Assembly: GCF_003144195.1 (NCBI RefSeq) | Contig: NW_020290011.1 | Span: 248,001-312,000 of the forward strand | DNA from: Ceraceosorus guamensis | Taxonomy: Eukaryota > Basidiomycota > Exobasidiomycetes > Ceraceosorales > Ceraceosoraceae | Direction of reading: 5' to 3' | DNA: 64,000 bases | Shown here: positions 27,789 to 37,440 of the stretch, piece after piece | How positions within the stretch are numbered: the first letter of the stretch is position 1 | Layout of the letters: every line of letters begins with the position of its first letter | Notes under the pieces: model-generated | Seen by the model: only the letters and a program-made list of their open reading frames with translations | Told to the model about the DNA's origin: nothing | The model's database searches: none | Program-made: the position numbers and the translations under genes

Positions 27789-28670
27789 CCTTCTTGGACA
27801 GTGAAATCCATTCGCGTGAGTGCTGAGTCTCGATGTTGCATCGCTGGCGCAAGTTGCGCAAGCTGATCTCTTGTATTCCAAATTGAACGCAACGGTCTGG
27901 CAGGCTCTTGGCTAGCGATGCTGAGACAGTAAAGCACCAAAGACAGTCTTGCGCGTGAGGGTGTATTGCTGTTAAAGTGGCCTTACGTACCGGCGCTTGT
28001 ACCGATCTCTTGGCTTGTATCTGAGGAATCGAAGACTGCAGAAATGCCAAGTTCGTCTCTCTCTGCTTCAGGATGTAAGTTGGTAGTAGCTGGCCGACTA
28101 GGACAGTCTGCGGGCTTTTGTTTGGCTTGCGAGCAGGACGTCCACCCGAGGCGTGAACGGCCAAGCGAGATACAATAATTCTGAAAGTGCAGGCGTGCTC
28201 TGAGCGTCAAGTGATTGATATTGAGAGGATGTGCTTTCTCGAGGAGTGCCTGAACCGATGTCAGACTCGCCATGCCAACAGGAGAGGTAGAGGTGTTGCG
28301 AATGTGGTCGTGTCATGTGTATTCGTCATACGTGAACAAGTACTGATCGCCGTTCATTGGACGATGAGACTACCTACATGGTACTCTAGCGCGTTTAGCG
28401 ATTTGCAGATCTGAAAGATGTCGACCCTTCTGAGCACATGACCTAGCTTACGACACGAAATCCTATCCACACTTTGACTCCCTGATCGATCCGAGGCCCA
28501 GGGATGACGAGTGTAGTCCTCGACGTAGTAAACAGGAGCGTCAGGGTCTGCATAGAGGTAAGGCTGAATCTCGAAAACTTCGAAGACAGACTGTTCGTCT
28601 GATAGATTGGCACCCGGGAAGTCGCCAGGACCGGCAAGACACGTCGAGCTCCAGCCTAGACCATCCGAAT
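27789..28670. other. Intergenic region without recognised features
   Basis: About 880 bp lie between convergent 3' ends. Short frames on both strands overlap each other and carry no recognisable motif. Nothing further can be supported. Confidence 0.4.
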
Positions 28671-32866: not shown

Positions 32867-35622
32867 CTACCGCACAGAGACAGAGTCGCTGTACTTTCGG
32901 ACCAGATTATTGAGCGCACTGCCCGCTCCCAGCGCCACAAGCGTCGAGGAAAATATGCTGACGACGAGAGAGAAGCGCATGAGCCGACTGAGCATCGTGA
33001 ACCGAGCGCTAGAGTCGCTGACTCACATGCTGAAAAGCAAAGAAAGGGTGGTCAACGAACACAAAAGGAGCGATCAGCACGACTTGGGCAGCGGTAGATG
33101 CGTACAAGCTGCAGCAGAAATGGATACTTACACGCTGCAGAGGCATAGAGAGATGTGAGCACGGCGTCAGCTGCTGCATGTGGGCAATGGAACGAAAGGC
33201 TTCGACTCACTTGTAAGGCTGTCATTCGGCAACGTGGCCGGAGCAAAGAAAGCATAAACGTCAGCATCGAGAAGCGGTCCTTGACAAAGTAGCACCAAAC
33301 TTACCATCTGTCGCGTAGGAGACGCAACAACACGAGGCGCGAGGAGAGGCGAACCAAGTGATGAATATCAGCGCGCTTCGACGGCTAGCCCCAGCTTCCA
33401 CTCACAGAAAAATCGGGCACAGCAACTTCGAGCAGAGCTGGCGCAGTGTACCACCTCCTTCCCCACACCTCGTTGCCATCGTTAGGATTGCGCACACGCT
33501 CCACTATGACAGCGGGCGGCAAGTCAAATCCTCTATGCGCGTCGGGCGGGTGCTCCTCATATCTCATAAACGCCTTGTCGTAGTCGTACGTCAAGAGCAA
33601 GGTGCTAGCAGGAGGAACTCGGAGGAAAGCCTCAATACGCGACGGTCGTTCGCGCGTCGATGCCGCGCTGTAGGAGAGCGATAGTAAAGGATTCAACGTC
33701 TCTTCATCGGCAAAACGCACAATGTCCGAGGCTGACTCGTCTGCAAACATTGCGCAGTGAGCTCAGGTCAGCTGTGCTAGGGTAATAGCCTGATCTTGAA
33801 CCTCGGTGCACGACTCACCCCATTCGTCTAGCTCCAAAGTGGTGTTGAGCGAGTGCAGATACGGTCTAACAAACCAGGGCAACACGTCGTAATAGAGCAC
33901 GTTCCTCTCCCTTTTGGGATCGATATTTCTGAGCGTGAGCTGCACCCGTCCTCTTTCCTGACCCGCGCCGACGAAAGATCGTGATACAGAGAGCTCGGGC
34001 AGCGGTACGTTGTGCGCTAAGAAGCAAAAGAAATCAAGAATCGCGTCAGACTCTACCTCATCTATTCTCATACGATGGCAGACTCACGATGCGCGAAACT
34101 AGTCTCATCTCTCCAACGCATCTCCAGCTCAAAAGGCATGTCCAAAGCATTTAAATCGTACTCAAGCTTCTCTCCCCTCATGTATGCTTCTTTCGCTTCG
34201 CTCTTCGTCTCTTCTTGATCGTCTTGGCCACTTGCAGTCACAGGCCCCAAAGGCATCGGCTCAACGACAAATGCAGGTGGAGCCACGTCGCCGTCCTCGT
34301 TGAGTTCCACAGGTGCGTCAGCCGGTCGATGCACATGCAAAGTAGAGCTGCTAGCAAGCGGACAGCTCCTCTGCAAGGATCTTGAGAAGAGCTTCGTCAA
34401 GCTCCAATCTGAGGCGTTCGCAAAAAAAGGCATCAGCGCTATTGTCGCAACCTCTTGAAAGGGCCAAAGTTGAGCACTCACTTCTTCTCCCTTCGAATAG
34501 ACCCGTGTGCGGGCTAAAAACGACATTGACAGCGATGTTTAACTGCCAAGCTCCCTTGCCATCCTGGCCTCCCCAGTGCTCATCTCGGGCAAGTCGAACG
34601 GTCATTCCGCTGAAATCCGCCGCAGCAACAGCGTGTGGTTCGAGCAGGCTGGCGAGCCCAGCGTGGGCCGCGCAAGGCAAAAGTCCAAGCAGTGGCGAAA
34701 GGTTCTCTGTGCAGATGTTCTCGGAAGGTAAAAACGAGTGAAGTAATTTGGTTGACCGCTGCCCATCGGACGAGGTGGGGTGGCCCGGTGAAGATGATTG
34801 TGTTCGTGAGTGGATGAGGGGCGACACTATGGGGAGGTGGGAAGGAGAGACTGTCGTTCGTGTGTCGAGAGCATTGAGGGTGGTGCAGAAAAGGCCGGCT
34901 AGTGAAGCGGTGAGCCTTTTCCAGCCTACCATAATTTGCTCAGATGGTTGAGCGGCGGATTCCGTGGTCTCGTTGCTATCGTAGCCATGAAACGCGCTTT
35001 CGCATGAGTGGTGAGAATCTCGACGCATCTGTCTCGCAACAAGCAGAGCTTAAGCTCACCTCATTCCTCTCAAGCGAGCCCAAAGTTCCGCCCCACTGCC
35101 GACCATTCCCACATCTCCATGCACATGCATAGGGTGACCCCACTTGCCATAATCCCACGTTCCTCGGTTGATAGACAGCGCAATCTCCTCCGCTCTTCCA
35201 GCCTGCGCAGTATGCATAAGCGCTCGAGGAAGGAGGTTGTAGTGATTTGTGCTCCAGATGTCTTTGTAAACCTGGGATTCAAGGTCCGCTTCTCGAACGT
35301 TGAAAGAGAAGTGCGTGTGTACCCGGCCGTCTATCAAGGGCCGGATGGATAAGTGCTCGGCGTAGGCACCCTTTTCCTCCACATCACGCGACTGCACCAC
35401 TCCGAGTAATATCGTGATCAGGAAAAATCTCCACAGACCTCTGTGACGATGGCCACGAGAAGTTGACCGGCCAGCAGAGCTGGGATTCGTGGCGTCCACT
35501 TCTTCCTGCTTCTGCTCCGTCTGCTCCCGGACTCCACTTTGCACTGTAGCAATGTTGTCTCGACGCACTTCACCAGGCAAGACGGCCCCAAGCAAAAGCG
35601 CAGCGGCCACAGTGCCAGCCAT
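32867..35622 (-). CDS. GPI16: GPI transamidase subunit PIG-T/Gpi16
   Basis: This subunit of the ER-lumen complex that attaches GPI anchors is recognised across its length: LSIRPLIDGRVHTHFSFNV and NHYNLLPRAL near the start, ASLAGLFCTTLNALD, ENLSPLLGLLPC, NWSLTKLFSRSL then CPLASSSTLHV, MPFELEMRW, LPWFVRPYLHSL, the DKAF and HRGFDLP blocks, and DFS-MPYNVI before the C-terminal membrane helix. Exons (-): up to 35060, 34975-34482, 34408-34088, 34016-33819, 33740-33406, 33307-33305, 33218-33211, 33134-33132, 33029-33027 and 32957-32867. No ATG exists in frame between the MFS gene and the first conserved block. The nearest in-frame ATG is at 35622, inside the last MFS helix, giving 672 aa. The frame is continuous with the MFS gene, so a fusion is possible. 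A signal-like segment GLWRFFLITILLGVVQS precedes the luminal domain. Confidence 0.85.
32958..33405 (-). other. GPI16: Run of four microexons in GPI16 (3, 8, 3 and 3 nt)
   Basis: Between the exon ending at 33406 and the last exon beginning at 32957, four exons are needed: ATG (33307-33305), CCTTACAA (33218-33211), CGT (33134-33132) and CAT (33029-33027). Each is flanked by a CAG acceptor and a GTAAGT or GTGAGT donor. Introns are 98, 86, 76, 102 and 69 nt. Joined, they encode M-P-Y-N-V-I in the only phase that links DFS to the terminal helix IIFSSTLVALG. This is the most conserved motif of the family, which makes chance very unlikely. Confidence 0.85.
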
Positions 35623-37440
35623 GACACCGATGACAATTTTCCAGGTCTTCTCGTAATTCTGACGTGCCTGGCTCGGATCGTTGACCAATATATAACCACT
35701 GGCGATATTTCCTGCACAATAGCCTGTAAAGATGGATCCTGTGGCAATGGCTTGTTGAGTCTTGCCTCTGATTTCCGAGGAAGCTATGCCAAGAAGCATG
35801 ACGAAGGGCGCACCAAAGATGGGCAGCAGGAGGTACCCTGCGTATGGCACTGCCCGATCAGTCCAGTCCGAGAGCCAGATCATCAAGGCGCCTGCTATCA
35901 CTGGTAGACAGGAGAGGATGAGCAACAAGAGTCGAGTGCCTTGATACCGACGTGAAATGAATATGACTAGGTAGATCGAGATTGCCGTGACTGCTCCGCC
36001 AGGAGCTGAAATAAAAGAAGGATCGATGAGATACAAAAAGCATGACTCGGCATGCGCACATGGTGGCTCACCTTGGAGAGCAAGTGCTTCTGCTCCGCCG
36101 GATCGGAACACAGCCCGGACAAGGATGGGGCCAAAGACGGTCACGCTTCCATTCACAACTATTGAGAGAATGAGTGCAATGGTTCAGTATGTCCTGCTGC
36201 TCCCCTTGCATGAGAATTAGTCAAGCTGCTCACCGTAGATGAGAGTAGCTATAGCAAGAAATAGCCACATTTTGGGGTCTCTAGCCGCCCTTCTGATTTC
36301 TCTCACCGACCAATCGTCCTTCCAGTCCAGCTCCCCCGCACAATTTCTGAGCGGGTCTCCTTTCTCCGGTTCTAAGCGCTTGCTGAGCAGCTCCCTCTGA
36401 CCCTCGCTGAAGCTATTATATCCCGGTATAGCAAGAATGGGCTGTGTGTCTGGCGAAGGTGGTAAGAGCAGCGCAAAAAGCACGCCGAGCGCAATGGTGA
36501 ATGCGCCGGGAACCAGAAAGAGGATCATCCAGCTTTGAGGAAGTGATGTGCGCGTATGACCCAAGCCGTAGTTTGTCAGACCTGAGACGATTGAGAAAAC
36601 ACCTGTCGCTGAGCTGCAGATTGTAGCACGCGAGGTAAAGAGGTGGAGCGTAGGTTCAGGCAGAGTCATGAACTACATTCGGAGCTGGAGGAGAGACTGC
36701 ACATGCGCATCGCACTCACTACCAGAGGCCAAGTCGCACAGTCTGCTCTTCTCGCGTGTACCATCGACGTGTGACAGCGACGAAGCCAGGCGAGACTGAA
36801 GACTCCACAAAGCTGTGAGACGTAGCAGACGCAGCAAGCATGAGCGTCCTCTTCCTCTTTTTCCCGCTCTTAGCGCATCGAACCTACCCAAGGAAGAACC
36901 GCTGGGCGACCAATCCTCCAAAGTTCTGAATTGCTGGAGTGAGGAGCAGGATTCCACCCCAGACGACGATGCAGCTACCCAGCCAGACGTTGATGCGTTT
37001 GAAATGATTGGCGGCGAGAGACATGGGAAAAGCGCCGACTAGGTATCCCCAGTAGAATGCGCCGGAGGAAGTGCCATATTTGGTTCCGCCAAGACCCAAA
37101 GAAGGAATGAGATTGAACAGTGTTGCTGAGCCGAGCACGGCTTTGTCCTTCGGGGCGCGATTTGTGCATCAGAGGTCATGAGACGTGTTGAACAGGCGCA
37201 TACATCCACCCAAATCTCGGCTGAGGAGGCAGCAACGCGCTCAAGACTCACCCAAAATTGTAGGCCGTATGCGACAAATAGCAACGGCACAAGAAGCAAG
37301 TCTACGCGCAGCAAAAGAGTCCGAGGTGTACCTTGCACGTCATCCGCGGAGACCTTTTTGCTCGCTCGCTCCGTGCTCGCCCAAGCTGCTCCATCTTCGC
37401 TCTTGCCCGTGCTGGGTCGCGTACCGATTTGTTGGCCCAT
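35443..37440 (-). CDS. MFS transporter of the Dal5/allantoate permease type
   Basis: Minus-strand exons are 37440-37252, 37147-36888, 36812-36720, 36613-36234, 36158-36069 and 36005 onward. Family marks are the first helix LLLVPLLFVAYGLQFWDKAV, the Y-W-G-Y-L-V/A-G block after helix 2, RRWYTREEQTVRLGLWYSATG (helix 4 entry, read across two exon joins) and the last helix IVIGVMAGTVAAALLLG. About 12 membrane helices can be placed. Dal5-type carriers import allantoate, ureidosuccinate, small peptides or vitamins; the substrate cannot be told. The frame before 37440 is open but has no ATG, so a short upstream exon is possible. The reading frame continues past the expected C-terminus into GPI16 without a stop, so the right-hand limit given here is nominal. 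Confidence 0.8.

Follow-up and report, generated by a model that had tools for sequence, protein, structure and literature searches.

Introduction

How can a conserved motif be encoded when 17 of its coding bases are divided among four exons of 3, 8, 3 and 3 nt? This question is raised by the end of a GPI16 gene in a 64,000-nucleotide stretch of the genome of the basidiomycete Ceraceosorus guamensis (contig NW_020290011.1, positions 248,001 to 312,000; hereafter the window, to which all coordinates refer). A preliminary description of this DNA proposed that four consecutive microexons spell the motif MPYNVI, which it called invariant. The reading favored here, which the sequence makes highly probable, is that GPI16 is present here as a single, intact copy, that its coding sequence is interrupted within 17 bases by five short spliceosomal introns of the ordinary kind, and that all four microexons are included in the mRNA.

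The GPI16 Gene and Its Neighborhood

Between about 35397 and 32867, the minus strand of the window encodes GPI16/PIG-T, a core component of the machinery for GPI anchoring, with the stop codon at 32869-32867. When the complete assembly (23.8 Mb) was scanned with the PF04113 profile, this locus alone was detected, in three exon blocks. The spliced protein gives a full-length match to Pfam Gpi16 at 393.5 bits (cut-off 27), and its matches to solved chains include GPI16 (3.4e-55) and PIG-T (4.2e-47). The exon chain was assembled by hand, guided by splice signals, and yields a gene with at least 10 exons. On the minus strand, an intron of 84 nt (34976..35059, GTGAGC...TAG) is followed by an exon at 34482..34975, an intron of 73 nt (34409..34481), an exon at 34088..34408, an intron of 71 nt (34017..34087), an exon at 33819..34016 and an intron of 78 nt (33741..33818). 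These introns were placed by their splice signals and the three exons by their frame and the match to Pfam Gpi16. The next exon (33406..33740), placed by its frame and the solved chains, ends in ...AVPDFS. That this structure reflects an assembly error or a decaying gene is hardly credible, and the least probable of the alternatives considered here: the exons outside the cluster are open, the Pfam match is strong, the PF04113 locus is unique and a 481-bp stretch covering the cluster occurs once in the assembly. Among named relatives, the closest to the GPI16 C-terminus are Acaromyces ingoldii and Meira miltonrushii (63% and 59% identity over the last 133 query residues), and Tilletiaria anomala shows 39% identity over 87% of the whole GPI16 query.

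On its upstream side, GPI16 runs without a stop into a transporter-like gene (35060-37168), within one stop-free frame at 36183-35062 of the minus strand. The MFS_1 profile matches 35060-37168 on this strand in three successive pieces, in the expected order, with E values of 0.00066, 0.0035 and 0.21, each under the curated cut-off. Because MFS_1 and Gpi16 occur together in a single chain in two database entries, P0027 (Parajaminaea phylloscopi) and P0024, it is possible that the two genes form a real fusion, or that a conserved neighborhood has been read as one gene.

Four Consecutive Microexons Predicted to Spell a Conserved Motif

Beyond the exon ending in PDFS, the coding sequence is predicted to continue through four successive very small exons, all on the minus strand. 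Cluster intron 1 (33308..33405, 98 nt, GTGAGT...CAG) leads to microexon 1 (33305..33307), ATG, which encodes Met. Cluster intron 2 (33219..33304, 86 nt, GTAAGT...CAG) is followed by microexon 2 (33211..33218), CCTTACAA, which supplies Pro, Tyr and two bases of the Asn codon. After cluster intron 3 (33135..33210, 76 nt, GTGAGT...CAG), microexon 3 (33132..33134), CGT, provides the last base of Asn and two bases of Val, and after cluster intron 4 (33030..33131, 102 nt, GTAAGT...CAG), microexon 4 (33027..33029), CAT, provides the last base of Val and two bases of Ile. Cluster intron 5 (32958..33026, 69 nt, GTGAGT...CAG) precedes the last exon (32867..32957), which holds the final base of Ile, the membrane segment IFSSTLVALG and the stop codon. 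Each microexon thus has CAG directly upstream and GTAAGT or GTGAGT directly downstream, in the places and with the borders given in the preliminary description, and the 17 coding bases lie within 281 bp, in agreement with its figure of about 280. If a microexon is taken to be an internal exon no longer than 15 nt that has splice sites of its own on both sides, all four belong to this class.

The predicted spliced sequence over the microexon junctions is ATGCCTTACAACGTCATC, and in the predicted mRNA ATGCCTTACAACGTCATCATATTT is flanked by GATTTTTCT and TCCTCGACG. The resulting frame reads ...LLEVAVPDFS-MPYNVI-IFSSTLVALGAGSALNNLVRKYSDSVSVR-stop. Of the solved chains, 9ub7, named GPI16, reads PDFSMPYNVII at this place, and 7w72, named PIG-T, reads PDFSMPYNVI; these are taken to be the yeast and human proteins, respectively.

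Splice Signals in and around the Cluster

Donor and acceptor matrices were derived from 75 self-trained GTRAG introns in a 264-kb sample, some of which must be false because control donor patterns gave 12, 23 and 16. Against this training set, the five donors of the cluster score 8.4-10.9 (21st to 73rd percentile), and any other GT in the stretch scores 2.4 or less; the stretch thus has no strong donor beyond those that the cluster uses. The acceptors of the cluster score 4.6-6.8 (21st to 68th percentile). Pentamers enriched before acceptors include ACTGA, CTGAC, GCTGA and CTGAT, and all five cluster introns contain a branch-point-like CTNAY site. In each, the next AG after this site is the used one, which leaves tracts of 28-66 nt free of AG. 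These sites, from cluster intron 1 to cluster intron 5, are CTGAT with its A at -61, CTGAC at -43, CTGAC at -33, CTGAT at -45 and CTCAT at -23, the first being unusually distant from its acceptor. In the four other GPI16 introns, an earlier AG follows both predicted sites in one case and one of two predicted sites in another.

Several unused AGs also score well. Those at 33109 (9.6) and 33171 (8.3) exceed all five used acceptors, and that at 33174 (5.8) exceeds two of the five. The AGs at 33171 and 33174 lie at most 40 nt from the donor at 33210, and the AG at 33109 could compete with the used acceptors and is a candidate for mis-splicing. RNA structure was also considered as a guide to splicing and was set aside: the fold of a 501-nt stretch is unremarkable and slightly worse than that of shuffled sequences (z = +1.26), of which 89 in 100 are equally or more stable.

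Chance, Exon Skipping and a Single Complex Intron

Runs of micro-exons can be spurious when proposed by aligners, according to the available part of one report (PMC10166558). The expectation by chance was estimated here by dinucleotide-preserving shuffles of the 448-nt stretch between the flanking exons, with the first donor and the last acceptor held fixed. MPYNVI arose in none of 100,000 shuffles under strict sites (GTRAGT/YAG introns of 45-160 nt) and in none of 3,000 shuffles when any GT..AG introns of 40-200 nt were allowed, and the real stretch has exactly one MPYNVI solution under either rule. The real stretch contains five GTRAGT donors; 82,633 of the 100,000 shuffles had only the fixed one, 69 had four and none had five. 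The scored sites of the real stretch can be joined into 142 chains, and in 16 of them the membrane segment is read in frame. Among these 16, the chain of four microexons has the top score (77.2) and is the sole one that gives MPYNVI, although chain scores are sums over sites and the ranking therefore favors long chains. No simpler coding region for this stretch emerged among these chains.

Taken together, the unique solution, the absence of the motif from all shuffles, the identity of the five strong donors with those used, the branch-point-like site and AG-free tract in every intron and the match to the solved chains bear out the proposal that MPYNVI is encoded by four consecutive microexons. 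At the level of DNA, the case for the four microexons is very strong for a finding made from sequence. Their inclusion in the mature mRNA is very likely, in view of the conserved frame that it would restore.

An alternative possibility is that, although the microexons exist, some of them are spliced into only part of the transcripts: skipping of 3-nt exons would produce a mixture of proteins that lack Met, Val or Ile immediately ahead of the membrane helix, as noise or as regulation. Such a mixture is conceivable because each 3-nt exon can be dropped without loss of frame: of the 16 ways to include or skip the four exons, the frame of the membrane helix is preserved in the 8 that contain the 8-nt exon and lost in the other 8. 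Chains with skipping also rank next (63.3, 62.1 and 60.9 vs 77.2), and variation by single residues is known from flatworm micro-exon genes (PMC7653826) and from RPS24 (PMC12686416), as far as the available portions of these reports describe it. The residues that would be lost are, however, conserved in most of the relatives seen, which makes this alternative unlikely.

It is far less probable still that the whole stretch is removed as one complex intron, stwintron-like or recursive, with no exon retained. The donors and acceptors are only 3-8 nt apart, which is near the zero-length case of recursive splicing, and nested introns are, in the text available, described as common in fungi. Loss of all four exons would nevertheless shift the frame before the membrane helix and eliminate the motif, and no intron lacks a full donor or acceptor of its own. 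A stwintron is defined, in the source as available, by an outer intron in which the donor, the branch point or the acceptor is split by an inner one, and five introns with complete splice sites of their own fall outside this definition. As for retention of single introns, cluster intron 1, 3, 4 or 5 would introduce an early stop, and retention of cluster intron 2 would shift the frame, which then reads on.

Conservation of the Motif in Relatives

Inclusion of all four microexons would yield a segment that agrees with the two solved chains, with algal proteins and with most of the relatives seen. A first protein search did not select for the motif because its words came from the first 500 residues; it gave seven matches, of which three have MPYNVI, three have FVYTNI or FCYMAI and one lacks the site. 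A second search, made with the C-terminal part, favors proteins that carry the motif. Across the 39 relatives from both searches, 32 carry MPYNVI, three carry MPYNV followed by V, M or G (one of these proteins ends there), three are divergent and one lacks the site. The word invariant, used in the preliminary description, was therefore too strong, given the three relatives that read FVYTNI or FCYMAI. DNA of the relatives was confirmed in no viral contig, and a near search of plasmids found none. In P0031, one of the 32 relatives with MPYNVI, a look-alike of the motif precedes the true site.

The divergent proteins, P0001, P0003 (Violaceomyces palustris) and P0004, read PDFS-FVYTNI or PDFS-FCYMAI and keep the Tyr. 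Their divergence falls exactly on the segment that is encoded by microexons in C. guamensis, with conserved flanks on either side, and may be either a real change or an error in the gene models. This pattern, together with the unused acceptors of higher score, speaks for the possibility that another route connects DFS to IFSS in C. guamensis, for example through a different short exon that yields a diverged segment of the FVYTNI or FCYMAI kind. The remaining 15 frame-keeping chains, however, shorten the motif or replace part of it by longer pieces, and none offers a substitute of the same length. The exact conserved residues arise only from the four microexons, and another route is accordingly quite improbable, more so than skipping of 3-nt exons though less so than a single complex intron.

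Isolation of the Cluster and Origin of Its Introns

Patterns with CAG acceptors, GTRAGT donors and set spacings were counted across the genome. The pattern CAGNNNGTRAGT occurs 576 times, vs 529 for its reversal. The donor-intron pattern GTRAGT-N60..90-CAG-N1..9-GTRAGT occurs 158 times, vs 150 reversed, and these counts include contributions from repeats; three of the 158 are in the GPI16 cluster. The same donor pattern gave 73 vs 184 reversed with GAC in place of CAG, and 114 vs 137 reversed with GCA. The first 100 or so places were listed for CAGNNNGTRAGT and for two of the three donor-intron patterns. The CAG count thus exceeds those of the GAC and GCA decoys but not that of its own reversal, and because these controls disagree, no clear excess of tiny exons is claimed for these patterns genome-wide. 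The GPI16 case therefore looks isolated. Within the window, CAGNNNGTRAGT occurs four times vs 1.05 expected; three of these are GPI16 microexons, and the fourth, at 28069, is in an apparently non-coding stretch.

A pattern for two microexons in succession has four matches genome-wide vs none reversed, and only GPI16 stands up. Two of the others look non-coding. The remaining one, L026, lies in a coding gene and can be read without a frameshift by assuming one intron of about 150 nt. At about 1500-1610 on the reverse strand of that locus, a 5-nt exon TGTCG could lie between two introns; it is doubtful because the single intron keeps the frame without it. A narrower pattern of the two-microexon type, which does not fit the spacing of the GPI16 cluster, had no match in the genome.

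Searched against the whole genome, the 481-bp stretch found only itself at E values up to 1, in a search that skips simple repeats. Introner-derived introns would have similar copies elsewhere, and this origin was set aside. Comparison of the GPI16 introns with one another gave p values of 0.05 or less in 5 of 36 pairs, which is too weak to count as kinship. In one of these five pairs, cluster intron 3 (33210-33135) and the intron at 33818-33741 share a stretch around CAGCTGAC...GCTCAC; their score is 28 vs a maximum of 26 in 300 mononucleotide shuffles, for one pair out of 36, and the resemblance may be due to chance or to a common branch-point context. The cluster probably originated from one exon cut by successive intron gains, with selection holding the motif.

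A Possible Mechanism and Its Significance

Tiny exons have been argued to be recognized through intron definition, and simultaneous removal of both flanking introns has been considered unlikely (PMC4674806, available portions). A comparable intron-definition model for tiny exons is called speculative by its authors in the part of the paper available (PMC8378409). The short introns and near-consensus donors of the GPI16 cluster are consistent with intron definition. Each cluster intron would be recognized alone, by pairing of its donor and branch point, and adjacent introns would leave in turn, since there is hardly room to seat U1 at a donor together with the acceptor machinery 3 nt upstream of it. 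With one flanking intron removed, a microexon would form the terminal bases of an exon of normal size, and splicing of the intron that follows could proceed normally. By analogy, stepwise removal through intron definition is likely in this cluster. The statement in the preliminary description that strict intron definition or stepwise splicing must operate is stronger than these published arguments allow. The complete proposal, in which a housekeeping gene has five constitutive introns in 17 coding bases, a single run contains three exons of codon size and removal is stepwise by intron definition, is probable, although less certain than the gene structure itself.

If this is true, few described cases would pack introns as densely as this stretch of GPI16, which would offer a natural substrate in which to measure the order of intron removal and how small an exon can be and still be recognized; the splicing intermediates could be distinguished by RT-PCR, so that the order would be measurable. 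A run of four exons, three of them of 3 nt, that is needed for a conserved part of the GPI transamidase would probe the limits of splice-site recognition directly. The cluster also raises a question of intron gain, with five introns in 17 coding bases vs about 1.3 kb for the four introns that precede them. Exons this small often escape gene finders and read aligners, and the GPI16 microexons thus also mark a blind spot of annotation.

Comparison with Known Microexons

The following comparisons draw on the available portions of the cited papers. In fungi, Fusarium CYP621A has a 1-nt exon and a Phanerochaete P450 gene has an 8-nt exon (PMC12940212). As in GPI16, the tiny exon completes a conserved motif in a fungal gene and was first recognized from protein conservation. 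Unlike GPI16, these genes have a single tiny exon per motif, and the 1-nt case is confirmed by reads (PMC12940212), whereas GPI16 has four in a row, three of them of 3 nt, predicted from sequence. Phanerochaete P450 genes have microexons of 6 bp and longer (PMC1184071), and Trichoderma Xlr2 has one of 20 nt (PMC11121469). In Arabidopsis, APC11 includes a constitutive 1-nt exon, for which the authors favor intron definition and stepwise removal; it shares an ultra-small exon with GPI16 but has only one, which was shown experimentally (PMC4674806). Plant peptidase M1 genes have adjacent exons of 5 and 12 nt in a conserved coding region, which were missed by annotation and attributed to gradual intronization (PMC8831610, PMC11096116). 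Both they and GPI16 have neighboring microexons in a conserved region, but in peptidase M1 these are two, larger and found in plants.

Runs of microexons are also known from animals. RPS24 has consecutive microexons of 3, 18 and 22 bp that are alternatively spliced; like GPI16, it includes a 3-nt exon in a run, but the run is alternative, has larger exons and encodes the C terminus of a human protein (PMC12686416). Flatworm micro-exon genes contain runs of microexons shorter than 70 nt and divisible by three (PMC7653826), and aphid bicycle genes contain runs of consecutive microexons (PMC9168663). These families consist mostly of microexons, whereas in GPI16 the run is one short stretch of a housekeeping gene and includes an exon of 8 nt. 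Flatworm micro-exon genes are delimited as having at least half of their exons as micro-exons divisible by three, in runs of at least four (PMC7653826); GPI16, with four of at least 10 exons being micro and one of these having 8 nt, lies outside this class. In the part of the literature searched, where flatworm and aphid genes were considered at the level of the family, no report was recognized of four successive exons that each have 8 nt or less. Single exons of 1 and 3 nt and fungal cases are already known, and the GPI16 cluster is an extreme variant of these known microexons.
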